DNA of 64,000 bases from Actinomycetes bacterium (GTDB lineage: Bacteria > Actinomycetota > Acidimicrobiia > Acidimicrobiales > RAAP-2). The DNA lies in the NCBI GenBank assembly GCA_021844425.1, contig JAKBTL010000076.1:1-64000 (forward strand), read 5' to 3'. The notes beneath the pieces were generated by a model, which ran no database searches, was not told the DNA's origin, and saw nothing but the letters and a program-made list of their open reading frames with translations. Position numbers and translations under genes: made by a program. Of the stretch, positions 4,410-60,986 are shown piece after piece; within the stretch, counting starts at the first letter, position 1; each line of letters opens with the position of its first letter.

Positions 4410-5726
4410 TCAAGGAGTGGCGGCCGCCGCGGACGACGGTGTTGTGTTCTTCGAGGATGTCACGCCGTATGTCGGCCCCTGGACCGTCACGAGGGTCCCG
4501 ATCGGCGTGTTCGGCCACAGGCTCGCGGCTGTCGCCAGTTGCATCTCGACGCACCCGTTGCTCTGCGGGAACCCGTAGGCCGCGCGGGGATAGTAGTGCA
4601 GCGCGTCGCCACCGTTGAAGTAGCTCACCCAGGGAACTGTCGGGATTGTGTAGTGCGTGCCTGTCACATCGGTGCCCGACATGTGCGAGGTGCGGACGTG
4701 CTCGAACACCTGGTAGGTGCCGTTGTGGGTTGTGGCACCGCGTACCCCGGTGTTGACGAGGACGTCATGGAGCTCGAGCGTGCCGTTGACCCATGCTGTG
4801 AGGTGCTCCACGGGGTTCGTGTTCTTTGTGACGAGCACATAGCTGACCGGCTCGGTGTTGGCCCTGCTGCTCTCGACGTCGTGGAGGAGCGCTGTCCAGA
4901 CTGCCGGGCCCGCGATGCCGTCGACAGAGAGGCTGTTCTCTGTCTCGAACATCATCACTGCACCCTTGGTGATCGCGCCTGTTGCTCCCGGCACCCACTG
5001 GCTCGTGAGCGCTGCGGGAAGACCTGGCCACCGCCACGAGAATGTGCCCGGCTGCGGTGTGGCCATGTCGCGCGCGATCGGCGTCGCACCGTTGAAGGAG
5101 ACCGGGAGGTACCCGAGCTCGGCGAGGAGCTGCTGGAGGCGGAGCACGTTGCCGTTCGCGATCGTGAACGTCACCGTCCGGCTCGCGCGCAGCCACGCAC
5201 CGGTCGTGCTCCGCACCCCGCCGGGGCCACCGGGGATCGAGAGCGTGTACTTCGTGAAGGGGAGGAACGGCTCGGATGGCGTGAAGACGAGGCGGTCGGC
5301 CCCACGCGGCCGCCACGAGCCCACGACTGGCGGAGACAGCGTCGGCGTGGGCCCGCTCGCTTTCACCGCGGAGTCGAACGTGACCGTGAGCTGCGTGCTG
5401 GGAGCGACGCCTGTCGCTCCGGGCGCCGGTGCGGTCGACGACACCCGGAAGGCCCCGGATGCACCAGGGCCCGGGGTCGAGGCGCCGGCCCCCTGGCTGC
5501 CGGCACCCGCCGTGCACGACCGACCGGCACAGGTGAGCGACGCTGCAGTCCTCTGGCTGGCGACGTACGCGGTCACGCCCCCGGCGACGACGAGCACCAC
5601 GGCGACCAGCAGCCAGAGCGACCAGCGTCGTCCGTGCAATGTGCTTCGATCCCGGAGTGCCTGCACCGGTTGCTCCCGTCGCTTCAGGCGGTCAGGTTGT
5701 CCGAGCCCGTAGGCGACCAGCTCCAC
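4410..5726 (-). CDS. Membrane-anchored L,D-transpeptidase with Ig-like and peptidoglycan-binding domains
   Basis: Predicted to make 3-3 peptidoglycan crosslinks or attach proteins outside the membrane. In order over 438 residues: a basic cytoplasmic N-terminus, one transmembrane segment (about 37-57, SLWLLVAVVLVVAGGVTAYV), a Gly/Pro/Ala-rich linker, an Ig-like domain (about 105-190, TQLTVTFDSAVK to TRTVTFTI), a peptidoglycan-binding repeat (LRLQQLLAELGYLP to ITKGAVMMFETENSLSVDGIAGPAVWTAL), and a YkuD catalytic domain. The catalytic stretch reads PQSNGCVEM with Cys near 392 and His in ALHYYP upstream; the usual S-H-G-C is S-N-G-C here. The tail is Ser/Ala-rich. The gene is monocistronic, 184 bp beyond argS. 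The class is clear; whether the Asn substitution affects activity is unknown. Confidence 0.85.
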   Translation of the reverse strand: MELVAYGLGQPDRLKRREQPVQALRDRSTLHGRRWSLWLLVAVVLVVAGGVTAYVASQRTAASLTCAGRSCTAGAGSQGAGASTPGPGASGAFRVSSTAPAPGATGVAPSTQLTVTFDSAVKASGPTPTLSPPVVGSWRPRGADRLVFTPSEPFLPFTKYTLSIPGGPGGVRSTTGAWLRASRTVTFTIANGNVLRLQQLLAELGYLPVSFNGATPIARDMATPQPGTFSWRWPGLPAALTSQWVPGATGAITKGAVMMFETENSLSVDGIAGPAVWTALLHDVESSRANTEPVSYVLVTKNTNPVEHLTAWVNGTLELHDVLVNTGVRGATTHNGTYQVFEHVRTSHMSGTDVTGTHYTIPTVPWVSYFNGGDALHYYPRAAYGFPQSNGCVEMQLATAASLWPNTPIGTLVTVQGPTYGVTSSKNTTPSSAAAATP

Positions 5727-42906: not shown

Positions 42907-43581
42907 GTGGCGTCGGCGCAATCCCGTGAGCTCCCCTTGGGCCACATGGCCCGAGGGAGCCCGTCGCGTCGCCTGAGCGGCGGCGAGCGACGACGGCAGC
43001 TCTCGACGGTGGCCCTGCGGCTCTTCGCGGAGCGCGGCTACGAGTCGACGACGATGGACGAGATCGCAGAAGCTTCAGGGGTCACCAAACCGCTTCTCTA
43101 CCAGCACTTCTCTTCCAAGCGGGCGCTGTACCTGGAGCTCGTGGACTCGGTGGCCGAGGAGCTTCTCGCCGAGATCTCGGCCGCGACCGCCGCGGCCTCC
43201 GGGCCGAGAGAGCAGGTGGAAGACGGGTTCGCGGCGTACTTCCGCATGGTCGTCACGCACGAGACAGCCTTCCGGCTGCTCTACTCGAGGAGCAGCTCGG
43301 CCAACCCTGAGCTCGGCGACGCGCTTCGCAGAGTGGAAGACGCGATCGCCGTGGCGATCGACCCGCTCATCGCAGCGGGACTCGATCCAGGTCACCGCCG
43401 CTTCCTCGCACATGCCGTCGTAGGCATGGCCGAAGGAGCGAGCCGTCATTGGGTCGAGACGCGCGGGGAGCGATCGGACGGCTCGCGCGACGCACGATGG
43501 CTGGGCACGGAGGCGCAGCGGCTCGCGCGGCGCATCGCCGAGCTGGCGTGGGCGGGACTGCGCGCAGTGCACGCGGACTGA
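42907..43581 (+). CDS. TetR/AcrR family transcriptional regulator
   Basis: 224-residue one-component repressor. The HTH region (about residues 28-75) reads LSTVALRLFAERGYESTTMDEIAEASGVTKPLLYQHFSSKRALYLELV. The C-terminal ligand domain is helical and undistinctive (FRLLYSRSSSANPELGDALRRVEDA). GTG 42907 is supported by TAGCGT at 42895-42900, exactly 6 nt upstream; ATG 42946 is the alternative and fits the usual TetR N-terminus. It lies 24 bp after the glycosyltransferase but has its own apparent promoter. Regulon unknown. Confidence 0.85.
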   Translation: MASAQSRELPLGHMARGSPSRRLSGGERRRQLSTVALRLFAERGYESTTMDEIAEASGVTKPLLYQHFSSKRALYLELVDSVAEELLAEISAATAAASGPREQVEDGFAAYFRMVVTHETAFRLLYSRSSSANPELGDALRRVEDAIAVAIDPLIAAGLDPGHRRFLAHAVVGMAEGASRHWVETRGERSDGSRDARWLGTEAQRLARRIAELAWAGLRAVHAD

Positions 43582-43663
43582 GCCTGCGGACTGAGCCTGC
43601 GGACCGCAGACCGTACCGGGGGGTCGGCCGCCGGAGTCCCGAGAACGGATCCGACGGGCGGCA

Positions 43664-43669
43664 TAACCT
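43664..43669 (+). promoter_or_regulatory. -10 box of the leaderless AsnC/Lrp gene
   Basis: TAACCT stands 7 nt before GTG 43677; no Shine-Dalgarno and no -35 match are present. Confidence 0.5.
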
Positions 43670-43676
43670 GGAAGCA

Positions 43677-44225
43677 GTGGACGGACAACCGCAGCGGCTC
43701 GACGCCACGGACCTCGCGCTCTTGCGGCTCTTGCAGCGCGACGCGCGCCAGACCAACAAGGACCTGGCCGAGGCGGTCGGGATCGCGCAGTCGACCTGCC
43801 TGGAGCGCGTCCGCGCATTGCGCTCGCAGGGGGTGATCAGGGGCTGGCACGCGGATGTCGACCTCGACGCGATCGGCAGGCCGCTGCGCGCCATGATCAG
43901 CGTCCGCCTGCGCCCGAAGACCACGGCCTCGGCTCGGGCCTTCCAGCAGGCGATGGTCAGCGCCCCCGAAGTGCTCGCGGTGTGGACGGTCACCGGAGCG
44001 GACGACTTCCTCGTCGAGGTCGCGACGCGCGACGTCGCCCACCTCCGGGACTTCGTCCTCGACCACGTGACGGGGCGCCGCGAGGTGGTCGACGCGCGAA
44101 CGTCCCTCGTCTACGACCAGGTGCGCGCCTGGGAGACCCCTCCGGGCGAGGAGCTCACCGCTGTGGGAAGCGCAGCAGACGCTCGGCAAGCTCCTCTCGG
44201 TACGACACCACGCTCCTCTCCTTGA
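43677..44225 (+). CDS. Lrp/AsnC family transcriptional regulator
   Basis: 182-residue feast/famine regulator. The AsnC-type HTH (about 8-55) is LDATDLALLRLLQRDARQTNKDLAEAVGIAQSTCLERVRALRSQGVIRG; the RAM ligand/oligomer domain follows (LRAMISVRLRPKTTASARAFQQAMVSAPEVLAVWTVTGADDFLVEVATRD). Such regulators sense amino acids. Its last 71 bp overlap the 3' end of the converging ferredoxin oxidoreductase gene, whose substrates derive from amino acids; direct control of that gene is plausible. The last 25 residues beyond the RAM domain are encoded in the overlap. Confidence 0.9.
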   Translation: MDGQPQRLDATDLALLRLLQRDARQTNKDLAEAVGIAQSTCLERVRALRSQGVIRGWHADVDLDAIGRPLRAMISVRLRPKTTASARAFQQAMVSAPEVLAVWTVTGADDFLVEVATRDVAHLRDFVLDHVTGRREVVDARTSLVYDQVRAWETPPGEELTAVGSAADARQAPLGTTPRSSP

Positions 44226-47200
44226 TGCGCTCGTAGCCGCGGACGCGGTCGGGCAGCCTCGCGATCTCGGTAGCCAGGCCGAGGTTCGACGCGTCGAGCC
44301 TCGGCAAGATGGAGCCGATCGCTTCGGCGTACTCCGAGGGAAGCTGGCGTTCGATCCGGCGCAGCTCGGTCCGGCCGAAGAAGTCGAGCGCGGTCCCTCG
44401 CACGCGGCGGGACGCCCGAAGGGCTCGCATCACGGGGCGCGACCAGGTGCCGAGGCGGATCTTATGAGCGAGCCCCTTCGCACGAAGTGCCGGCGGGTGC
44501 AGGAGCCAGGTCGTATCTCCTTCAGAAGGGTCGACGGCCGGGTGGTCGAGGAGGAGCCGGGCCACCTCGTACTCGTCCTTGTACGCCAGGAGCTTGTGGT
44601 AGCCGAACGCGACACCGGCCGTGAGGCGGCCGTCTCCTCCCACGCGCCGCTCGGCGGCCGCGGTCTCTCCCACGAGCCGGGCGAAACGGCGTGCGAGCGC
44701 CTCGTCCTGGTAGTCCACCAGGTCGCCGGCGAGCCATTGGACGTGCCGCCAGCCCGCGGCGGGGAGCCCCGAGGGGTCGATCCCCGACAGCACGCGAGCA
44801 CCGGCCTGCTCGGGGATCGTCGTCGGTTCGGTCCCGGCCTCGCCGCTCGACCCGCCGCTCGACCCGCCGCTCGACCCGCCGCTCGACCCGGCACCGGCGG
44901 ACGGCGCGCGCTCTGCGCGATCGTGTGCCACCACCCAGCGACGCCCCGCCTCGAAGGCAGCGACGTTGGCGTGGACAGAGACCCCGTTGCGCTCGATCGC
45001 GGTCCTGATCGACCGGGCAGAGACGGGGAGCATCCCGAGCTGGCACGCCACCCCTAGCAGCACGACGTTCGCCGCGGTCGAGGGCGCGCCCGCCTCGTGG
45101 GCGACGGCGATCGCGTCGACGAAGGTGGCGCAGTCGTCAGCCGCCGCGGCGACAAGAACGGCCTCCAGCTCGGTGACCGGAACCTCGCGCGATTCGAGAC
45201 CGAGGACCATCGGCCCGCTCAGGCTGGCGGCGGAAGAGCCGACGACTGCAGTGCGCCCCTGTGCCATGCTCGCGAGCACCTTCGGCTCGCTCGCGGCCAT
45301 GAGATCCGCGGCAAGGAGGACGTCGACCTCGCCTTCGCCGAGCACGTTCGAGCGATCGCCCGCGCCTGGGCCGATACGCAGGTCGGAGATGACCGGGCCG
45401 GCCTTCTGCGACAACCCGGTCTGGTCGAGCCCCCAGACCTCCACGCCCTCGAGCAGCGCTGCCCACGCGAGGAGGTGCGCGGACGTGACGACGCCGGTTC
45501 CCCCCACCCCCGCGATCCGCACGGTGAGCGCCCGATCGAGCTCGACGACCGGCGCGTCCGGCAGGCCGCGCGAGGCGCTGGTCGCGGCGGCGTCCTCCAT
45601 GGGCGGAGCGACTGCACGCGGCCGGCCGCCGGAGCGCGCCTTTACGAGCGTGAAGGCGGGGCAATCACCCTTCAAGCACGAGCGGTCGACGTTGCAGCTG
45701 TCCTCGTCGATGCGGGTCTTCTGGCCCAATGGCGTGTCGATCGTCTGCAGCGACAGGCAGTTCGACTTCACCTGGCAATCTCCGCAGCCCTCGCAGACCC
45801 GCTCGTTGATCACGACGCGTTCGGTCGGCAACGGCGCCAGCCCACGCTTCCTCGCTCGGCGCAGCTCGGTCGCGCACTGCTGGTCGTGGACCAGCACCGT
45901 CACGCCATCGACGCCCGCGAGCTCCTCTTGGACGGCGACCACGTCGTCGCGCGAGCGAACCGAGACACCTCGGGGCAACCGCGTGCGGCGGTAACGGGAG
46001 CGGTCGTCGGTGGTGATCACCACGCGGCTCACGCCCTCGAGCAGCAACATGCGCGCGAGATCGATCGGTGAAGCGGTGCCTCCGACGACCCGCTGGCCAC
46101 CCGTCATCGCGGTCGTGCCGTTCCAGAGGATCTTGAAGGTGATCGGCACTCCGGCGGCGACCGCAGCGCGCACCGCGAGCTGGCCCGAGTGGAAGAAGGT
46201 GCCGTCGCCCAGGTTCTGCACGAGGTGGTGCTCCTTCACGAACGGCTCCATGCCGATCCACTGCGCGCCCTCCCCTCCCATCTGGGTGATGCCGACACGG
46301 TGGCCGACGCGTGCTTCGGGCATGTAGTGGACGATCGTGTGGCAGCCGATCCCTTCTCCCACGAGCGTCCCCTCGGGCACGACGGTGCTCACCGAGTGCG
46401 GGCACCCCGAGCAGAACCACGGGACGCGCGTGCCCGGTTGCACCGCGCGAGACGCCTGTGTGGCCACAGTCGGCCGCGGCGGTGCGGGCGCAGTCGCTCC
46501 CGGCGATCCGGGGGCGGTCGCTCGCAGCTCGACGCGCTGACGGGGCTCCGGCAGCTCTTTGACGACGGTGCCGAGGCTCGCACGCAGGAGGGGCCCGAGG
46601 ATGCGGGCGATCGACGCTGCGTCGAGCACGCCATGGCGAGGAACGAGCGTGCGTCCGTCCAGGTCCAGCTTTCCGAGGACAGCGGGGCTCCTCGGCCGGC
46701 GGGCGATCATGGAGAGGAGCTGGCTCTCCACGAGGTCGCGACGCTCCTCGACCACGATCACCTGGTCGACTCCGTCCGAGATCGCTCGTGCGAACCTCGG
46801 GCCGATCGGAAACGGCAGTCTGACCTCGCCAAGGGCCGCGCCGTTGGCGCGCAGCACGTCGTCGTCGAGCCCGAGGAGGCGCAGCGCCTCCACGACCTCC
46901 GAGAACACGATGCCCGCCGCCACGATCGCGAGCCGGGGCCGCTCGGGCGCGACCAAGAGCCGGTTCAGCCGGTTCGCGTCGCCGTAGCGGGCAGCTGCTG
47001 CGATGCGATCCGTGAGCACGACGCGCTCGCGCTCGAGGGTGGCCGGCGTGAGCAGATCGCCTGAGACCGGCGGGGCCACGTACCCGTCGGGCAAGACAGG
47101 CTCGCGCCATTGTCGCAGCACCACGGTGCCTTCAGCGTCCGCGACCGCGGTCGCCAGCTTGATCCCCACCCACGCGCCCGTGAAGCGCGAGAGCGCCACG

Positions 47201-47838
47201 GCGTGGCGGCCCAGGTCGAGGACCTCCTCGAGGGAGCGGGGGAACACCACGGGCATACCGAGGTCGGCGAGCACCGCCTCGGATGCGCTCGGAAGCGTGG
47301 AGGACTTGGCGGAGGGGTCGTCGCCGACGATCGCGAGGGCGCCGCCGTCCGCCGACGCGCCCGCGAAGCTCGCGTGACGCAGGGCGTCGAGGCTCCGGTC
47401 GAGCCCTGGTGCCTTGCCGTACCACACACCGAGCACCCCGTCGACGAGCGCCGAGGCGTGGGTGCTGGCGAGCTGGCTTCCCATCACCGCGGTCGCACCG
47501 AGCTCCTCGTTGACCGCGGGGCGGTGAAGGATCTCGACGTCGAGGTGCGAGCGCAAGGCGCTCTCGAGCTCTTTGTCGAAGCCGGCGAGCGGCGACCCCT
47601 GGTACCCCGAGACGAAGGCAGCCGTGCGCTTCCCTGCCGCTCGGTCGGCACGAAGTGCGTCGACGAGCACGCGGATGGTCGCCTGGACGCCCGACAGGTG
47701 CACCCTCGGCACATCCGGCCCCCAGCGGTCACCGGGGTCCAGGTCACCGGGGTCCGGACCGGCGGGGCCCAGGACACCGGGGTCCGGACCGGCGGGATCC
47801 GCGTCGGCGGGGAGACGGCCGTCGTCGGTGACTGCCAC
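44155..47838 (-). CDS. Fused indolepyruvate-type ferredoxin oxidoreductase
   Basis: Oxidises aryl- or branched-chain 2-oxo acids to acyl-CoA and CO2 with reduction of ferredoxin. At 1227 residues it fuses the IorA-like and IorB-like chains. N-terminal pyrimidine-binding domain (AAFVSGYQGSPLAGFDKELES, RPAVNEELGATAVMGSQ), TPP-binding domain (WFCSGCPHSVSTVVPEGTLVGEGIGCHTIVHYM and VQNLGDGTFFHSG), cysteine-rich segment (CEGCGDCQVKSNCLSLQ then DSCNVDRSCLKGDCPAF), and the IorB-like gamma domain (VRIAGVGGTGVVTSAHLLAWAALLEG). A GGSS-repeat linker precedes the C-terminal domain. GTG 47838 is supported by a promoter; ATG 47979 would give 47 unconserved residues. The 3' end overlaps the AsnC gene. Confidence 0.92.
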   Translation of the reverse strand: MAVTDDGRLPADADPAGPDPGVLGPAGPDPGDLDPGDRWGPDVPRVHLSGVQATIRVLVDALRADRAAGKRTAAFVSGYQGSPLAGFDKELESALRSHLDVEILHRPAVNEELGATAVMGSQLASTHASALVDGVLGVWYGKAPGLDRSLDALRHASFAGASADGGALAIVGDDPSAKSSTLPSASEAVLADLGMPVVFPRSLEEVLDLGRHAVALSRFTGAWVGIKLATAVADAEGTVVLRQWREPVLPDGYVAPPVSGDLLTPATLERERVVLTDRIAAAARYGDANRLNRLLVAPERPRLAIVAAGIVFSEVVEALRLLGLDDDVLRANGAALGEVRLPFPIGPRFARAISDGVDQVIVVEERRDLVESQLLSMIARRPRSPAVLGKLDLDGRTLVPRHGVLDAASIARILGPLLRASLGTVVKELPEPRQRVELRATAPGSPGATAPAPPRPTVATQASRAVQPGTRVPWFCSGCPHSVSTVVPEGTLVGEGIGCHTIVHYMPEARVGHRVGITQMGGEGAQWIGMEPFVKEHHLVQNLGDGTFFHSGQLAVRAAVAAGVPITFKILWNGTTAMTGGQRVVGGTASPIDLARMLLLEGVSRVVITTDDRSRYRRTRLPRGVSVRSRDDVVAVQEELAGVDGVTVLVHDQQCATELRRARKRGLAPLPTERVVINERVCEGCGDCQVKSNCLSLQTIDTPLGQKTRIDEDSCNVDRSCLKGDCPAFTLVKARSGGRPRAVAPPMEDAAATSASRGLPDAPVVELDRALTVRIAGVGGTGVVTSAHLLAWAALLEGVEVWGLDQTGLSQKAGPVISDLRIGPGAGDRSNVLGEGEVDVLLAADLMAASEPKVLASMAQGRTAVVGSSAASLSGPMVLGLESREVPVTELEAVLVAAAADDCATFVDAIAVAHEAGAPSTAANVVLLGVACQLGMLPVSARSIRTAIERNGVSVHANVAAFEAGRRWVVAHDRAERAPSAGAGSSGGSSGGSSGGSSGEAGTEPTTIPEQAGARVLSGIDPSGLPAAGWRHVQWLAGDLVDYQDEALARRFARLVGETAAAERRVGGDGRLTAGVAFGYHKLLAYKDEYEVARLLLDHPAVDPSEGDTTWLLHPPALRAKGLAHKIRLGTWSRPVMRALRASRRVRGTALDFFGRTELRRIERQLPSEYAEAIGSILPRLDASNLGLATEIARLPDRVRGYERIKERSVVSYREELAERLLRFPQR
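44844..44891 (-). repeat. 12-bp tandem repeat in the oxidoreductase linker
   Basis: Four copies of CGCTCGACCCGC in frame encode the flexible GSSGGSSGGSSG linker between the gamma domain and the C-terminal domain. Confidence 0.85.
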
Positions 47839-47844
47839 GTGTTC

Positions 47845-47873
47845 AGTATGCGGGGCCTTCGCCTTGCTGTGAA
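47845..47873 (-). promoter_or_regulatory. Promoter of the ferredoxin oxidoreductase gene
   Basis: On the minus strand TTCACA (47873-47868), a 17-bp spacer and CATACT (47850-47845) lie 6 nt before GTG 47838, a leaderless arrangement. Upstream are a TCTCT-CGA-AGAGA dyad (47894-47906) and two GAACGAT copies 10 bp apart (47941-47957), candidate sites for the neighbouring Lrp-type regulator. Confidence 0.6.
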
Positions 47874-48065
47874 GCATCCCGCGCAAGATTTCATCTCTCG
47901 AAGAGACGTCGAAGAACGTTTCAGAGCCGTCCGAGCACCCGAACGATTTCGAACGATACGCGGCGATCCGGCGTGCCACTGCGAGCGCCTGGCGGCGGGT
48001 GCGAGCGTGCCGCTACCTGTCGCTCGCCTCCGCGCGCCCAGCGTCGGAGAGCTCCGCGGCCTTGG

Positions 48066-49256
48066 TCACGCCTCGCCCGGGCCTCCACGAGTGCCTCCGA
48101 ACCCCAGGTGGCGGGCGATGACCATGCGGAGCACTTCCGAGGTGCCCTCCCCGATCTCGAGGACCTTGGCGTCCCTGTAGAAACGACCGGCCGGCGTCTC
48201 GTTCATAAACCCGTACCCGCCGAAGATCTGCGTCGCCTCCCTGGCGTTCACCATCGCCGCGTCCGACGCGACGAGCTTGGCGATCGCTGCTTCGCGCTTG
48301 AAGGGCCTCCCCGTGGTCAGCCGCCGCGCCGCCTCGTAGTACGCGAGACGCGCCACGTGCGTACGGGCGTCCATGTCCGACAGCTTGAACTGGAGGAACT
48401 GGGACTCGCCGAGCGTTCGCCCGAACGCCTCGCGCTCGGAGAGATGCCGGACACACTCGTCGACGCACCCCTGCGCGAGCCCCACAGAGAGCGCGGCGAT
48501 CGCGACACGACCCGCGTCGAGGACCGAGAGGCACTGGGGGTACCCGCGGCCCTCCTCTCCGAGCAGGTGATCGAGGGGGACGCGGCAGTCGTCGAACGCC
48601 AGCTCGTGGGTGTCCGACGCGCACCATCCCACTTTCGAGTACCCCGGCGCGACAGTGAACCCGGGCGTCCCGGTCGGAACGACGATGGTCGAGATCGACG
48701 GCCGCCCGTCGCCGGCGCGCCCCGTCACCGCGGTGACCGTCACGAAGGCGGTGATGTCGGTGCCCGAGTTCGTGATGAACGCCTTGGAGCCGTTGACCAC
48801 CCACGCGTCGCCGTCGCGCGCCGCGGTCGTCCGCGTGCCCGCGGCGTCGGAGCCCCCGCCGGGCTCGGTCAAGCCGAACGCGCCGAGCGCGCTACCCGCG
48901 CAGAGGGAGGGCAGCCAGCGCCCGCGCTGCGTCTCGGTCCCGAAACGGTAGATCGGCATCGCGCCAAGGCCGACGGCCGCTTCGAGCGTCACCGCGAGCG
49001 ACGAGTCGACCCGCGCGAGCTCTTCGATCGCGAGGCAGAGCGCGAAGACGTCGCCCCCCATGCCGCCGTACTCCTCGGGAAACGGTAGCCCGAAGAGCCC
49101 CATCTCCCCCATCTTCTGGACCAGCGCGTACGGGAAGCTCCCGTGCTCGTAGTACTCGGCCACGACCGGCGCGACCTCTTCTTGGGCGAAACGCCGGACC
49201 GTCGCCCGGAGCTCTTCGTGCTCCTCGCTCAGCTCTCCTGCCTCCATTGGGGCCAT
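48066..49256 (-). CDS. Acyl-CoA dehydrogenase (isovaleryl-CoA dehydrogenase candidate)
   Basis: FAD enzyme introducing the alpha-beta double bond in an acyl-CoA and passing electrons to ETF. 396 residues: N-terminal helical domain, GSALGAFGLTEPGGGSDAAGTRTTA (flavin loop), WVVNGSKAFITNSGTDITAF, the linker SDTHELAFDDCRVP, and the C-terminal IFGGYGFMNETPAGRFYRDAKVLEIGEGTSEVLRMVIAR, with a Glu in EGTSE. Good RBS (GGGAGGCAGG) 5 nt before the ATG. It lies 27 bp after the HMG-CoA lyase gene in a run with methylcrotonyl-CoA carboxylase, so isovaleryl-CoA is the likely substrate. Confidence 0.92.
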   Translation of the reverse strand: MAPMEAGELSEEHEELRATVRRFAQEEVAPVVAEYYEHGSFPYALVQKMGEMGLFGLPFPEEYGGMGGDVFALCLAIEELARVDSSLAVTLEAAVGLGAMPIYRFGTETQRGRWLPSLCAGSALGAFGLTEPGGGSDAAGTRTTAARDGDAWVVNGSKAFITNSGTDITAFVTVTAVTGRAGDGRPSISTIVVPTGTPGFTVAPGYSKVGWCASDTHELAFDDCRVPLDHLLGEEGRGYPQCLSVLDAGRVAIAALSVGLAQGCVDECVRHLSEREAFGRTLGESQFLQFKLSDMDARTHVARLAYYEAARRLTTGRPFKREAAIAKLVASDAAMVNAREATQIFGGYGFMNETPAGRFYRDAKVLEIGEGTSEVLRMVIARHLGFGGTRGGPGEA

Positions 49257-49283: not shown

Positions 49284-50267
49284 TCACTCCCGGGATCTGT
49301 GCCCCTGGGCGAGCGCCCGCACGACCTTGGACGGGCTCGGCCGCCCGAGGTGCTCGGCCATCCACACCGAGGTCTCGACGAGCCGGCCGAGGTCGACACC
49401 GGTCGCCACCCCGGCTCCGGCAAGCGCCCAGCAAAGGTCCTCGGTCGCGAGGTTGCCGGTCGCGCTCTTGGCGAACGGGCAGCCGCCGATCCCGCCCGCC
49501 GAAGAGTCGACGGTCGTGACCCCGCACGACAGCGCGGTGAGGGTGTTCGCCAACGCCTGGCCGTAGGTGTCGTGGAAGTGGACGGCGACCTGGTCCGCCA
49601 CGATCCCGGCGCGCGCGAGCGCGTCCAGCACGTCCACGACCTGGCCCGTGGTCGCGACGCCGATCGTGTCGCCAAGGCTCACTTCGTCGGCACCCATCTC
49701 GAGCAGCCGTTCACACACCGAGACGACGCCCTCGGCCGCCACGGGTCCCTCCCACGGGTCGCCGAAGCACATCGACACGTAGGCCCGAACCCCCAGCCCG
49801 TCGGCCTTCGCTCCGGCGACCACGGGGGCGAACATCTCGAGTGCCTCGTCACGCGAGCGGTCGAGGTTCCTGCGGGCGAACGTCTCGGTCGCGCTGGCGA
49901 ACACGCAGACGTCGCGCACGCCGGAGGACACGGCACGCTCGAGACCCGCCAGGTTCGGCACCAGCGCCGGGAAGCGGAGCCCTGCGCCGCGCGCCTGCTC
50001 CCAGGTTCCTCGAAGAGGGGCGAGGAGCGAGAAGACCTCCTCTGCGTCGGCGAGCTGCGGCACCCGAGCGGGGTTCACGAAGCTCGTCGTCTCGACGGTC
50101 GTGAGCCCAGCGTCGACGAGCCGAGTGACGAGCTCTGCCTTCACCTGGGCGGGGACGACAGAGGGCTCGTTCTGCAACCCGTCCCGAGGGGCGACCTCCC
50201 AGATCCGCACAGCGGCGGGCAGGTCCGGGCGCCGGTGCACGGGCGGCAGCCACGGCGCGATCGTCAC
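49284..50267 (-). CDS. Hydroxymethylglutaryl-CoA lyase
   Basis: Splits HMG-CoA into acetyl-CoA and acetoacetate, the last step of leucine breakdown. The 327-residue TIM barrel shows VRIWEVAPRDGLQNEPSVVP, TTSFVNPARVPQLADAEEV, the metal-binding HFHDTYGQALAN, and the signature GIGGCPFAKSATGNLATED with the catalytic Cys. GTG 50267 directly follows the carboxylase alpha stop (1-bp gap), so they are cotranscribed and probably coupled. Acetoacetate could be activated by the CoA-transferase encoded 5 kb upstream. Confidence 0.94.
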   Translation of the reverse strand: MTIAPWLPPVHRRPDLPAAVRIWEVAPRDGLQNEPSVVPAQVKAELVTRLVDAGLTTVETTSFVNPARVPQLADAEEVFSLLAPLRGTWEQARGAGLRFPALVPNLAGLERAVSSGVRDVCVFASATETFARRNLDRSRDEALEMFAPVVAGAKADGLGVRAYVSMCFGDPWEGPVAAEGVVSVCERLLEMGADEVSLGDTIGVATTGQVVDVLDALARAGIVADQVAVHFHDTYGQALANTLTALSCGVTTVDSSAGGIGGCPFAKSATGNLATEDLCWALAGAGVATGVDLGRLVETSVWMAEHLGRPSPSKVVRALAQGHRSRE

Positions 50268-50268
50268 G

Positions 50269-52308
50269 TCAGTCGCCCCCCGAAGCGCCTTCGACCGCTT
50301 CGCCCTCCCCCACGCGCCCGAGCAGCTGATCGAGGCCGACCGACTGGCCCTGGCGCACGAGCAGCTCGGTCACGACGCCGTCTGCAGGAGCGACCACCAC
50401 GTGCTCCATCTTCATCGCCTCGATCACGACGAGCGGCTGCCCGGCGCGCACCGCCTCTCCGACACCGACGTGGACAGCGGCGACCACCCCAGGCATCGGG
50501 CTCTTGACCGGCCCCGTCATGCGCTCCGACTCGCCACATCCACGTCGCAGCGCGTCGCGGGATGAAAAGCGCCACGCGTCTCCCCGCCGGCAGACCCAGA
50601 CGTCGCTGCCCTGCACCGCAGTGCGCCACTTCCCCGTGACGCCGTCGATCTCCAGCGCGAGCTCGCCCGCGCCCCGGGCCCGGGCGCGCACCTCGAGCCA
50701 CGGTCCGTCGTCGACGCGCACCCTCGCCGAGAGAGAGACCCTTCCCTGCACGCGCACGCTCACCGCACGCCCCTCGTGCCCGAAGGCCACTTCCCACTCC
50801 CTGGGCCCTGCGATCGTCCAGCCGTCGGGCACCTCCCACGGGTCGATGACAGAGCCGTTCGGTTCGACCTCGGCCGCGAGCACGCACAGCGCAGCGACTG
50901 CCGCGTCGCGGGTATCGCCGTCGTCGGGGGTGGCGAGCTCCGCGAGCGTCCGGTCCACCAGACCCGTGTCGAGGCGCCCAGCGGCGACCTCGGGGTGCGC
51001 GAGCAGTCGGGTGAGGTAGCCGACGTTCGTCGTGACCCCCAGGACGGCCGTCTCCTCGAGTGCTGCGCGCAACCGCCGGACTGCCTCGTCGCGCGTGGTC
51101 CCCCACGCGACGACCTTGGCGAGCATCGGGTCATAGCGCGTCCCCACCATCGCCCCAGAAGCGAGCGCAGCGTCCACGCGTACGTGGGGATCCTGGCGAA
51201 CGTCGGGCAGGGACGGGGGGAGAGCGACGACCGCCACGGTGCCGCTGGCAGGGAGAAAGTCGCGTGCAGGATCCTCCGCGTACACCCGCGCCTCGACGGC
51301 GTGCCCGCGGCACGTCGGCGGGGTCTGTGCAACCTGGGCGGCGGGGAGCGCCTCTCCGGCGGCCACGCGCAGCTGCCACTCGACGAGGTCGACCCCCGTG
51401 ACCGCCTCGGTGACGGGGTGCTCGACCTGCAGGCGGGTGTTCATCTCCATGAAGAAGTACTCGTCGGGACGGTCGCCAGGGACGATGAACTCCACGGTCC
51501 CGGCTCCCACATAGCTGCAGGACCTCGCGACTTCGACGGCACTCTGCGTCATCGCTGCCCGCATCGCGTCGCCGACGAGGGGGGACGGGCTCTCTTCGAC
51601 GATCTTCTGGTGACGCCGCTGCAAGCTGCACTCGCGCTCCCCGAGGTGCACGACGTTGCCCAGAGCATCCGCGAAGACCTGCACCTCGATATGGCGCGGG
51701 CGCTCGATCCAGCGCTCCACGAGGAGCGTGCCGTCGCCGAACGCGTTCTTGGCTTCGCGCCGCGCCGAGGTGATGGAACCGAAGAGATCCTCTGGTGCCG
51801 TCACCCGGCGCATGCCCTTCCCGCCGCCTCCCGCGGCAGGCTTGAGCAGCACCGGAAGCCCCAGGTCGAGCGCGGCAGCCGCGAGCTCTTCGTCGTCCAT
51901 GCCGGGACGTCCGGCACCGGGGACGACGGGGACTCCCGCTGCCGCAACGGTCTGCTTGGCTCGAATCTTGTCCCCCATCGCCTCGATGGCTCCAGGCGGC
52001 GGCCCGACCCACAGCAAGCCCGCTGCGATGACCGCCCGTGCGAACGCCGGGTCCTCGGAGAGGAAGCCGTAGCCGGGGTGGACCGCCTCTGCACGCGCGA
52101 ACTTCGCCGCGTCGACGAGCGCGTCCGCGTCCAGGTAGCTGTGCACCGCACGGGCGGCGTCCGCGGCCAGGGCGTGGGGCGCGTCCTCGTCGTCGGGGGC
52201 GTAGACGGCGATCGAACGGATGCCGAGCGCACGGAGCGTCCGAAAGATCCGCACGACGATCTCGCCGCGATTGGCGACGAGAACCGAACCGATCCCTTTC
52301 ACGGTCAC
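50269..52308 (-). CDS. Methylcrotonyl-CoA carboxylase alpha (biotin carboxylase + biotin carrier)
   Basis: ATP-dependent carboxylation of biotin for the beta subunit. 679 residues: biotin carboxylase ([24 protein letters not shown]-grasp loop [38 protein letters not shown] with the catalytic [10 protein letters not shown]), a BT-type middle domain (about 460-600), and a C-terminal biotinyl domain with [11 protein letters not shown] (biotinyl-Lys near 634). GTG 52308 overlaps the beta stop (GTGA). The context with HMG-CoA lyase supports 3-methylcrotonyl-CoA rather than acetyl-CoA or propionyl-CoA as substrate. Confidence 0.93.
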
Positions 52309-53936
52309 ATCCGGAAGATGCCGTAGCCGACGTCGTCGAGCGGTGCGTTGCGCGCCACCGAGAGCCCGAGCCCGACGAGCCGGCGGGTGTCGAGAGGGTC
52401 GACGACTCCGTCGTCCCACAGCCGGGCGGTCGAGTAGTACGGGTTCCCTTGCGCTTCGAACTGCGCACGAATCGGGGCCTTGAACGCCTCTTCCTCGTCG
52501 TCGCCCCAACTGCCCCCCAGCGCTTCGACCTGGTCCCGCCTGATCGTCGCGAGCACCGACGCGGCCTGCTCCCCGCCCATCACCGAGATCCGCGCGTTGG
52601 GCCACATCCAAAGGAAGCGTGGGCTGTAGGCACGGCCGCACATCGAGTAGTTCCCCGCGCCGTAGCTCCCGCCGATCACGACGGTGATCTTCGGGACGCG
52701 GGCGCACGCGACGGCGGTCACCATCTTGGCGCCGTGCTTGGCGATGCCGCCGGCCTCGTACTCGCGCCCCACCATGAAGCCGCTGATGTTCTGGAGGAAG
52801 AGCAGCGGAATGCACCGGCGATCGCACAATTGGATGAAGTGCGCCCCTTTCAGCGCCGACTCCGAGAAGAGCACGCCGTTGTTCGCCACCACCCCGACCG
52901 GATGACCCCAGATGTGGGCGAACCCGCAGACGAGGGTCGACCCGTACTGCGCCTTGAACTCCAAGAAGCGCGAGCCGTCGACGAGGCGCCCGATCACCTC
53001 GCGCACGTCGTAGGCCATGCGAAGGTCCGTCGGCACGATGCCGAAGAGCTCGGCCGGATCGAGCGCCGGCTCCTCGGCGGCTCGCACCTCCCAGGGGCGA
53101 GCCGGCCGCGGGCCGATCGTCGAGACGATCTCGCGCACCCGTTCGAGGGCGTGCTGGTCGTCGTCCACGAGGTGGTCGGTGACCCCGGACTGGCGGGCGT
53201 GCAGCTCTCCGCCGCCAAGCTCCTCCGCCGTCACGACTTGGCCGGTCGCGGCCTTGACCAGCGGCGGGCCGCCGAGGAAGACCGTGCCCTGGTTCCTCAC
53301 GATGATCGCCTCGTCGCTCATCGCCGGCACGTACGCACCACCCGCGGTGCACGAGCCGAGCACGGCGGCGATCTGCGCGATCCCCTTCTCCGACATCGTG
53401 GCCTGGTTGTAGAAGATGCGCCCGAAGTGCTCCCGGTCCGGGAACACGTCGTCTTGGCGGGGCAGGTAGGCACCTCCCGAATCGACGAGGTAGATGCACG
53501 GCAGGCGGTTCGACAACGCGACCTCCTGGGCGCGCAGGTGCTTCTTGACCGTCAGCGGGTAGTACGTGCCACCTTTCACCGTTGCGTCGTTCACGACGAT
53601 GACACACTCTCTTCTGCCGACGCGCCCGATGCCGCAGATGATCCCCGCAGCGGGCGCCTCGTCGTCGTAGCAGCCAGTGGCCGCGAGCGGCGAGAGCTCG
53701 AGGAACGGCGAACCCGGATCGAGGAGCCGAGCCAGCCGTTCCCTCGGCAGGAGCTTCCCACGTTCGACGTGCCGGCGACGAGCCGCTTCGGGACCGCCGA
53801 GTGCCGCCCGCTCCAGGCGCGCCCGGAGGTCGTCGACGAGATCACGGTTACAGGCGACGTTCTCCGAGAACGCCTGCGACGTGGTGTCGAGGGTCGAGCG
53901 GAGCGGGGGAAACGGGGCGGTTGCCGCCGGGGCCAT
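52305..53936 (-). CDS. Methylcrotonyl-CoA carboxylase beta (carboxyltransferase)
   Basis: Transfers CO2 from carboxybiotin to 3-methylcrotonyl-CoA. 543 residues with tandem crotonase-fold halves: [43 protein letters not shown] and [35 protein letters not shown] (N-half oxyanion and biotin site), then [36 protein letters not shown] and [38 protein letters not shown] (C-half). These MCC-specific stretches separate it from propionyl-CoA carboxylase. First gene of a four-gene leucine catabolic operon. ATG 53936 has no Shine-Dalgarno; TAACAT lies 7 nt upstream, covered by a palindrome. Confidence 0.95.
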
Positions 53937-53943
53937 CGTCTCG

Positions 53944-53983
53944 ATGTTAGCGATCGCTAACGGGACTGCGCTAGCGCTAGCCT
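53944..53983. promoter_or_regulatory. Divergent leaderless promoters with two palindromes (leucine operon / TetR)
   Basis: GTTAGCGATCGCTAAC (53946-53961, perfect) overlaps the minus-strand -10 TAACAT (53949-53944), which is 7 nt before ATG 53936. GCTAGCGCTAGC (53970-53981, perfect) overlaps the plus-strand -10 TAGCCT (53978-53983), 6 nt before GTG 53990. Both palindromes share the TAGCG/CGCTA core, consistent with one regulator binding both promoters. Confidence 0.75.
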
Positions 53984-53989
53984 CGCCCC

Positions 53990-54595
53990 GTGCCTGCGAC
54001 CACCACGGCCGGACGGCGCCCTGCCCGCGAGGAGCGCAGGCAGCAGATCCTGCGCTGCGCCGCGCAGCTCTTCGCCGGCCGCGGCTTCCACGGGGTCTCC
54101 GTCGACGACCTGGGAGCCGCCGCCGGCGTGACCGGCCCGGCCCTCTACCGCCATTTCCGCTCGAAAGAGGACATTCTCTCCGAGCTCCTCGTCTCGGCGA
54201 GCGAGCGCCTCCTTGACGGCGGACGCCGGCGCGTCCAGGACGCGCAGCACCCGGGCCAGGCGCTCGACGCGCTGATCGCGTTCCACGTGGCGTTCGCGCT
54301 CGACGAACCGGACGTGATCACCGTCCACCAGCGCGACCTTTCGAGCCTTCCCCCGCGTGCTCGCCGAGCGGTTCGTGCACTCCAGCACGAGTACGTCCTC
54401 ATCTGGGCGCAGGTCGTCGAGCGGATCACGGGCTGCGGTACGGAGCGCGCGATCGCGGCCGCGCACGCTGGCTTCGGCCTCATGAACTCGACCCCGCACT
54501 CGGCGCGGCTGCCGAGCGACGCCATGTCGGCGCTCCTGCGCGAGATGGCGGGCGCGGCGCTGCGCGCGGCTTCGGGGACCACTCCTACCCGCTGA
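53990..54595 (+). CDS. TetR family regulator of the leucine-catabolic operon (candidate)
   Basis: 201 residues. HTH at about 15-62: [52 protein letters not shown]. The ligand domain includes [36 protein letters not shown], as in TetR proteins near acyl-CoA genes, suggesting an acyl-CoA ligand. It is divergent from the carboxylase beta gene with 53 bp between start codons, the space filled by two related palindromes. Autoregulation and repression of the operon are inferred. Confidence 0.88.
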
Positions 54596-54640: not shown

Positions 54641-55339
54641 TCAGTGCCGAGCCTCGATCCCCCGACGATCCTCCGAAGGTCCCCCGACCGGGATCGTCGC
54701 GGGCGGCTCGGGCACGAGGAGCTTCGGCTCGGTAGCTGCCTGGACGTCGTCGGCGCTGACGCCCGGAGCGACCTCACGAAGTACGAGCCCGAGCGGCGTC
54801 ACGTCGATCACCGCGAGGTCGGTGACGATCATGTCCACGACGCCCGCGCCCGTGAGCGGGAGCGAGCAGCGCTCCACGATCTTGTAGGAGCCGTCTTTCG
54901 CGACATGCTCCATCACGACGATGACTCTGCGGACGCCGTGGACGAGGTCCATCGCCCCACCCATCCCCTTCACCATCTTGCCGGGGATCATCCAATTCGC
55001 GAGGTCTCCGGACGCCGAGACCTGCATCGCGCCGAGCACCGCCGCGTCGACGTGACCTCCACGGATCATCCCGAATGACAGCGAGGAATCGAAGAACGAC
55101 GCCCCCGGCTCGATCGTGACCGTCTCCTTCGACGCGTTGACGAGGTCGGGGTCCTCCTCGCCTTCGTGGGGGTAGGGCCCGACGCCGAGGATCCCGTTCT
55201 CGCTCTGCAGCACCACGTGCACACCGGGAGGCAGGTGGTTCGAGATCAGCGTCGGCATGCCGATGCCGAGGTTCACGTAGGCGCCGTCTCGAAGGTCCAT
55301 CGCCGCCCGGGCGGCGATCTGCTCGTGCGTGAGGCTCAC
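54641..55339 (-). CDS. 3-oxoacid CoA-transferase, subunit B
   Basis: Beta chain of a succinyl-CoA:3-ketoacid (acetoacetate) CoA-transferase. 232 residues from GTG 55339. The catalytic glutamate is in [16 protein letters not shown] (SENG motif); other marks are [17 protein letters not shown] and [35 protein letters not shown]. The GTG overlaps the alpha stop (GTGA). It would turn acetoacetate from HMG-CoA lyase into acetoacetyl-CoA. The C-terminus is slightly extended and proline-rich. A weak GCCCT-GGCA-AGGGC hairpin (54602-54615) lies between this and the converging TetR stop. Confidence 0.93.
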
Positions 55340-56121
55340 GCGGCTCCCCCCTCTACGCCGGCCGCCCTCGGGCGGACCGTGCGCTTCTCGATGTGCTTCT
55401 CCCGGCTCGGATCCGCTCGGACGACCCGCTGGACGAAGATGCCTGGCACATGCACCACCGCCGGGTCGAGCGTCCCGGCAGGGACCAGCTCCTCGACCTC
55501 CGCGATCGTGACACGGCCCGCCATCGCGCACAGCGGGTTGAAGTTCCGGGTCGCCTTGTCGAACACGAGGTTGCCCACCGTGTCCCCCCTGCTCGCCCGG
55601 ACGAGCGCGAAGTCAGTGGTGATCGCGTGCTCGAGGACGTACTGTCGGCCGCCGAACTCGCGAACCTCGCGCGGCGGCGAGGCGACGGAGACCGTGCCGT
55701 CGGGTGCGTAACGCCACGGCAGACCCCCCTCGGCGACCAGGGTGCCCACCCCTGCTGGGGTGTAGAAGGCAGGGATCCCGCAGCCGCCGGCGCGGAGCCG
55801 CTCGGCGAGCGTCCCCTGGGGGATGAGCTCCACCTCGAGCTCGCCGGCGAGGAATTGGCGGGCGAACTCCTTGTTCTCGCCGACGTAGGAGCTCGTCACG
55901 CGTGCGATCCGATGCTGCTGGAGGAGACGGCCGAGCCCCCAGCCGTCGACTCCGCAGTTGTTCGAGACGACCGAGAGATCGGTCGCGCCATTCTCGACGA
56001 GCGCGTCGATCAGGTCGACGGGGACCCCGCACAACCCAAAGCCTCCGACCGACAACGAGGCGCCGTCTCCGACGTCCTCGACGGCCGCCGTAGCGCTGTC
56101 GACGACCTTGGTCAGCGCCAT
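55336..56121 (-). CDS. 3-oxoacid CoA-transferase, subunit A
   Basis: Alpha chain, 261 residues from ATG 56121 with the strong RBS GAGGAGGG. CoA-binding loop [22 protein letters not shown] (glycine-rich), [52 protein letters not shown] and [18 protein letters not shown]. Together with subunit B it forms the acetoacetate-activating enzyme that fits the leucine degradation genes downstream. Promoter not identified. Confidence 0.94.
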
Positions 56122-56354
56122 GAGCCCTCCTCGCAGCTGCCGCACGAGGCATGGTCCACCTGGACAGGGATCCAGCTGTTCGAAGCCGACGCCGCCCGGC
56201 CGCAGGCCAAGTGCTCGCCGCGAGCTCGGCGCTCCTGCCCAACTCCCGTGTGCACAGCGCCAATCACTGCTCTCCTCCTAGACGTCGTCTGCCGGCACGA
56301 CACGCGTCGTACGACGCGTGCCCAGCGAGAACGCTACCGCCGTACGCGAGCCGT

Positions 56355-59689: not shown

Positions 59690-60904
59690 TCAGTCGATGT
59701 GGATCCCCGAGATCGCCCGGGCGATGACGAGCCGCTGGATCTCCGAGGTCCCCTCGAAGATGGTGTAGATCTTGGCGTCCCGGTACCAGCGCTCGACGGG
59801 GTGCTCGCGGATGTACCCGTAGCCGCCGAGGATCTGGATCGCCTGCTCGGTCACCCACACCGCCGTCTCTCCGGCGAAGAGCTTGGACTGGGAGCCCTCG
59901 CCAGCCTCGAACTTCTTGCGGTTCGCGGCCATCCAGGCGGCCCGCCAGCACAGCAGGCGAGCCGCGTCCGTGCGCATCTTCATGTCCGCGAGCTTGAAGG
60001 CGATCGCCTGGTTCTCGATGATCGCCCGGTTGAACTGCCTGCGTTCCCTCGCGTAGTCGAGCGCGTGCTCGTAGGCGGCGCGCGCGATGCCCACGGCCTG
60101 CGCCCCGACCGACGGGCGGGACATCTCGAACGTGGCCATCGCGGCCTGCGACGAGGTGCGCGCCCCCTCCCGCGCCCGCGCGAGGCGTTCCTCCAGCCTC
60201 TCCTTGCCCCCGAGCAGGCAACGACCAGGAACACGGCAATCGTCGAGCACCACCTCTGCCGTATGCGACGCCCGAATGCCCATCTTCTTGAATTTCTGCC
60301 CCTGGCTGACGCCGGGCGTGCCCTCGGGGACGACGAAGCTCGCCTGGCCGCGGGCACCGAGCGCAGGTGTCACGGACGCGACGATGACGTGGATGTTCGC
60401 AAGGCCCCCATTCGTGATCCACGTCTTCGTGCCGTTCAACACCCACTCGTCCTTGGCCTCGTCGTAGACCGCACGGGTCTTGAGCGAGGAGACGTCCGAG
60501 CCTGCGTCGGGCTCGGAGACGCCGAACGCGGCGAGCTTGACGTCGTCGGGGGTCCCGAAGCACTGGGGGATCCACTCCGCGTGCTGCTCGGGCGTGCCGT
60601 TCCCGTAGATCCCCACGACCGCGAGCGTCGAGCCGAAGATCGCCAGCGCGATGCCGGCGTCGCCCCAGCTCATCTCCTCGTTCACGAGGAGCAGGGTCAA
60701 GCCGGTGGGGTCGAGGAAGGCGTTGGCGACGAAGTCGAAGGAGTACAGCCCGATCGTCGCCGCCTCCTTGATGATGGGCCACGGCGTCTCTTCGCGCTCG
60801 TCCCATTCGTGGGCTGCGGGGCGGACCACGTTCTGCGCGAAGTCGTGCACCCACTTCTGGATCTGCACCTGGTCTTCGTTGAGCTCGAGAGAAAAATCGG
60901 CCAT
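59690..60904 (-). CDS. Acyl-CoA dehydrogenase
   Basis: 404-residue FAD enzyme feeding ETF. N-terminal [30 protein letters not shown], flavin loop [47 protein letters not shown], substrate-side [15 protein letters not shown], and the C-terminal [39 protein letters not shown]. It carries an unusual acidic/Arg insert [25 protein letters not shown] precedes the ATG by 10 nt. Chain-length specificity cannot be read from sequence. A palindrome about 65 bp upstream suggests its own regulator, possibly the nearby MerR or a distant TetR. Confidence 0.93.
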
Positions 60905-60967: not shown

Positions 60968-60986
60968 AGGTTACCCAAAGGTAACC
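60968..60986 (-). promoter_or_regulatory. Palindrome and -10 box upstream of the acyl-CoA dehydrogenase
   Basis: GGTTACC-CAAA-GGTAACC (60969-60986, perfect 7-bp arms). On the minus strand TAACCT (60973-60968) at its edge could be the -10, giving a leader of about 55 nt with AAGGAG. Likely a repressor site. Confidence 0.6.

Follow-up and report, generated by a model that had tools for sequence, protein, structure and literature searches.

Comparative analysis of a 64-kb stretch of actinobacterial DNA (64,000 nucleotides, here called the window) makes it very likely that a local ortholog of the mycobacterial repressor BkaR controls both its own gene and a divergently transcribed leucine-degradation operon through one operator, GTTAGCGATCGCTAAC, and that a second palindrome in the same intergenic gap is not an operator. 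We also lean, with somewhat more caution, toward a scenario in which a two-operator BkaR switch has been reduced to one operator in this genus, with a single repressor dimer controlling two leaderless promoters whose polymerases also exclude each other.

Gene organization of the locus and identity of the TetR protein

The gap between the ATG of the accD gene (position 53936, minus strand) and the GTG of the tetR gene (position 53990) measures 53 bp. The accD gene (52305 to 53936, minus strand) is the first of its operon and, according to a family scan and the layout of its homologs, encodes an AccD1-like beta subunit of a biotin-dependent carboxylase, which is probably a methylcrotonyl-CoA carboxylase subunit. 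Downstream on the same strand lie a gene for an AccA1-like biotin carboxylase/carrier subunit (50269 to 52302), a reading frame named from its sequence without a family-library scan and with a presumed GTG start at 52302; a hydroxymethylglutaryl-CoA (HMG-CoA) lyase gene (49284 to 50267; NF004283, 346.7 bits against a cut-off of 246); and an acyl-CoA dehydrogenase gene (48066 to 49256), which was matched at the family level only and whose gene context suggests an isovaleryl-CoA dehydrogenase. This operon content, with carboxylase subunits, HMG-CoA lyase, and acyl-CoA dehydrogenase, fits leucine breakdown. Convergent with tetR (53990 to 54595, plus strand) are two minus-strand genes for subunits B (54641 to 55336) and A (55336 to 56145) of a 3-oxoacid CoA-transferase, to which TIGR02428 and TIGR02429 were assigned jointly. 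The divergence of tetR from an accD1-type carboxylase gene, which has its counterpart in the directly divergent bkaR and accD1 of M. smegmatis, is a layout common to most orthologs, and the accD homologs that face most of the orthologous tetR genes are ~69 to 93% identical. Downstream of the leucine operon, the family scan placed a fused indolepyruvate ferredoxin oxidoreductase family protein (44155 to 47979, minus strand), which may also be part of amino acid breakdown. Its gene is adjoined on the opposite strand by that of a Lrp/AsnC-like regulator recognized by eye (43449 to 44225, plus strand).

Sequence, phylogeny, and structural matching identify the TetR protein as an ortholog of mycobacterial BkaR/Fad35R (Rv2506). 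It matches the NCBIfam profile NF050111 (SACE_7040 family) over its whole length (profile positions 1 to 185 of 186) with 241.8 bits, a little short of the curated threshold of 250, while its next-best family reaches 59 bits. The best PDB sequence is 4G12 (E value, 2.9e-43), which is Fad35R of M. tuberculosis (PMC4418694); Fad35R and BkaR have been treated as one protein (PMC3920632). The recognition helix of the window protein is almost the same as VSGPAIYRHF of 4G12, and a tree of 54 TetR proteins grouped the 4G12 segment with the f89 sequences, in the family to which the window protein belongs. The AlphaFold2 model (mean pLDDT, 92.9) superposes on 6YJ2, taken as Rv2506 (BkaR) from the entry title, with a Z score of 24.2 and an rmsd of 1.6 over 183 residues at 48% identity.

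Divergent promoters and a probable conserved operator

Both genes appear to be transcribed from leaderless promoters with conserved -10 boxes, a reading that is well supported by comparison of the sequences. The initial annotation had likewise proposed two divergent leaderless promoters and had named the same two hexamers. On the operon side, TAACAT (53949 to 53944, minus strand) stands 7 nt before the ATG and has four bases (TAAC) in common with the operator; on the tetR side, TAGCCT (53978 to 53983, plus strand) stands 6 nt before the GTG. The promoter comparison covered 12 loci, eleven from the genus and one from a sister genus. In all 12, TANNNT precedes the tetR start codon by 6 to 7 nt, against a background of 0.0009 per position, and TAAC[AC]T precedes an operon start codon by 6 to 9 nt; the fitting start codon was chosen in some loci, so that these counts carry some dependence, chiefly on the operon side. 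The room between -10 box and start codon hardly admits a normal ribosome-binding site with its spacer.

The gap contains two perfect palindromes at the places where they had initially been read, one of 16 bp, GTTAGCGATCGCTAAC (53946 to 53961; palindrome 1), and one of 12 bp, GCTAGCGCTAGC (53970 to 53981; palindrome 2). Symmetry by itself is weak evidence, because perfect palindromes are about as common in the window (70% G+C) as a first-order Markov model predicts, with 50 of at least 12 bp (51 expected) and 4 of at least 16 bp (4.8 expected). The weight must therefore rest on comparison with related loci.

This comparison indicates that palindrome 1 is very probably the genuine operator of the BkaR-type TetR. 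It presents the GTTA-N8-TAAC arrangement within the divergent gap, and sites of this type, counted with at most one arm mismatch, lie upstream in 53 of the 54 family loci tabulated across actinobacterial orthologs, mostly opposite the same accD gene. The search relied on the GTTA/TAAC arms, so arm invariance is built into the matrix derived from it, whereas the near-universal presence of a site beside the orthologs is not. Two or more operators, usually 25 to 31 bp apart, were counted in 31 of the 54 loci and one operator in 22; at the locus L148, no site satisfies the limit of one arm mismatch, and the operator of L160 is a divergent form. Some of the sites are identical to published BkaR sites, namely, GTTAATGACGACTAAC in L121 and L122 and GTTAGTGACGATTAAC in L128 and L129. 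A matrix built exclusively from 63 out-of-genus sites, the lowest-scoring of which reaches 16.7, gives palindrome 1 a score of 24.5 bits, and the next best position in the 64-kb window scores 7.1.

Of the 13 genomes of the genus, 12 contain GTTAGYGATCGYTMRC exactly once, each time at the tetR locus; in the 13th (G571), the contig breaks off 1.8 kb beyond the HMG-CoA lyase gene and does not reach the locus, so this genome is uninformative. The same pattern read backwards has zero occurrences in the genus genomes searched. A genome search of the kind suggested in the initial annotation found no second exact GTTANNGANCNNTAAC in the 3.0-Mb assembly (~92% complete), and TTAGCG-N2-CGCTAA has no match with fewer than 2 mismatches elsewhere in that assembly. 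In a sister lineage, L092 and L164 carry two operators 28 bp apart upstream of tetR (GTTAACGATCGTTAAT or GTTAACGATCGTTAAC, plus GTTAGCGATCGTTCAC), and such one- and two-operator forms among relatives could help to trace the loss or gain of a site.

Two other sites in the window were noted in passing. The sequence GTTCGCGATCGTGAAC (5154 to 5169) is three mismatches away from a BkaR-type operator, has a matrix score of 6.2, and is probably a chance match. The sequence GTTACCCAAAGGTAAC (60970 to 60985) lies ~66 bp upstream of an acyl-CoA dehydrogenase gene starting at 60904 on the minus strand and is the sole exact GTTACC-N4-GGTAAC in the 3.0-Mb assembly; it may serve as the operator of another TetR, since comparable sites occur close to where other TetR genes of the order begin (L105, L114, and L120).

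Likely origin of the second palindrome

Palindrome 2 is most likely the by-product of a doubled hexamer rather than a second operator. It consists of a tandem duplication of GCTAGC at the tetR -10 region, a hexamer that occurs nowhere else in the window, and its perfect symmetry follows because any tandem repeat of a self-complementary hexamer is itself perfectly palindromic. The corresponding position in relatives holds just one GCTANNNT, for example GCGCTAGCCT in L152, and palindrome 2 is absent from all 11 other loci compared. These include the closest relatives (TetR 87% and 84% identical), among which L151 reads TGTGCCAGGGGCTATCGT and L152 is 7 bases shorter. The duplication may predate the split between the window and L151, with the copy having decayed in the latter, because these two share a longer operator-to--10 distance (16 bp, versus 9 to 10 bp in most others of the genus); the tree leaves the branching order of the window, L151, and L152 not firmly settled.

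The two palindromes had initially been described as related, and the same TetR had been proposed to bind both with different affinities, repressing the operon from the first and its own gene from the second. Mycobacterial BkaR does have two such sites, bound with unequal affinity, in the equivalent divergent gap (PMC3920632), so the proposal describes the ortholog well, and palindrome 2 does cover the tetR -10 box, with its centre 22 bp from that of palindrome 1 (25 to 31 bp in two-site loci). However, the proposal is not supported for palindrome 2 itself. Apart from being missing in every other locus compared, this sequence is without GTTA/TAAC arms, its own GCTA/TAGC arms are 4 bp apart and not 8 as in the operator, and the TAGCG/CGCTA element that prompted the claim of relatedness maps to the operator's interior, which is variable. 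In its best register, palindrome 2 has a matrix score of -17.0, far from the training-site minimum of 16.7 and exceeded by 406 other window positions, and the doubled hexamer describes it fully. The reversed pattern, no fair control for this 12-mer, was left out of the argument. The lack of conservation, the arms, their spacing, and the matrix score together led to the rejection of palindrome 2 as an operator, and we regard the binding of one TetR to both palindromes as quite improbable.

The doubled hexamer might instead have provided tetR with a second, overlapping -10-like box (TAGCGC beside TAGCCT) and thereby changed its promoter strength or choice of start site. The upstream hexamer is similar to the genuine -10 box, and the ~7 additional bases between operator and -10 box in the window and L151 agree with such an effect, but TAGCGC is without the conserved final T of TANNNT, and the extra copy in L151 no longer starts with TA (CAGGGG), so we consider this reading unlikely. 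As for the 16-bp palindrome, it could in principle be the site of a different regulator, with the adjacent TetR acting elsewhere, given that the binding of this TetR to the operator in the window organism is predicted from comparison. This is hardly credible, since the motif accompanies the BkaR-type TetR family throughout the phylum and within the genus is found at this locus and nowhere else, and the ortholog BkaR binds the same type of motif (PMC3920632).

Predicted regulation and comparison with known BkaR systems

With a single operator as the preferred reading, the local BkaR ortholog would bind GTTAGCGATCGCTAAC as a dimer, in the manner of its mycobacterial counterpart. Toward the leaderless leucine-degradation operon, the operator shares sequence with the -10 box; toward tetR, it would cover the -35 region, at -44 to -29 with the GTG taken as the transcription start. 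A single dimer bound there could plausibly shut off the accD operon and tetR together, because the operator spans both elements; this prediction draws on the geometry of the gap and on the ortholog. A build-up of leucine-derived acyl-CoA, the presumed inducer, with isovaleryl- or methylcrotonyl-CoA as candidates, would then release the repressor from the operator and allow expression of the operon. The two polymerases would probably exclude each other, because the start sites are only 54 bp apart. One operator is expected to suffice for control, though two are present in the majority of Mycobacterium-like, f84, and Nocardiopsis loci. The initial annotation had anticipated a TetR operator between tetR and the divergent leucine operon that serves both repression and autoregulation. 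Such behavior has been published for the ortholog BkaR (PMC3920632) and is predicted by analogy in the window organism.

These results add an actinobacterial lineage, sampled mainly through metagenome assemblies, to the known range of the BkaR leucine-catabolism switch, and the family-wide operator pattern GTTA-N8-TAAC is usable for regulon prediction. They also illustrate that a doubled hexamer can yield a perfect palindrome as a by-product and that such a palindrome can pass for a second operator.

Mycobacterial BkaR acts as a repressor of its own gene (fourfold autoregulation) and of the divergent accD1 operon; its dimer recognizes two copies of a 16-bp core sequence, GTTA(N)T(N4)A(N)TAAC, in the gap and binds one of them more weakly (PMC3920632). 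The AccD1-AccA1 enzyme is a methylcrotonyl-CoA carboxylase of leucine breakdown (PMC4347857). Palmitoyl-CoA, which is no leucine intermediate, has been reported to affect Fad35R, for which tetracycline is reported as well (PMC4418694). AibR of Myxococcus (5K7H, with isovaleryl-CoA bound) has the TetR fold in common with the window protein and binds an intermediate of leucine breakdown, but the two are only 17 to 19% identical and belong to different families.

The window differs from the mycobacterial systems in several respects. Its gap has one operator and not two, spans 53 bp, and separates two genes with apparently leaderless mRNAs, the HMG-CoA lyase gene is inside the operon, and no separate BkaR-type operator, such as M. 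tuberculosis has before scoAB, was found before these genes in the window. Both mycobacterial sites carry the GTTA...TAAC core, and one M. tuberculosis copy has TAGC. The strict mycobacterial core, GTTANTNNNNANTAAC, is not matched by the window operator, in which C and G replace T and A at positions 6 and 11, and M. tuberculosis BkaR did not bind the Rv0575c/Rv0576 sites with such a core change at positions 6/11 (PMC3920632). This feature separates the window from the mycobacterial form and not from the wider family, because approximately one-third of the out-of-genus half-sites have C or G at core positions 6/11. What the window has in common with Mycobacterium (Rv2506, MSMEG_4718) is an orthologous TetR divergent from an accD1-accA1 leucine operon and a 16-bp palindromic GTTA...TAAC operator, together with the predicted repression and autoregulation. 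Collectively, the finding is a mostly ordinary one, a BkaR switch of the kind already known, with one operator and two leaderless promoters as a modest variation.
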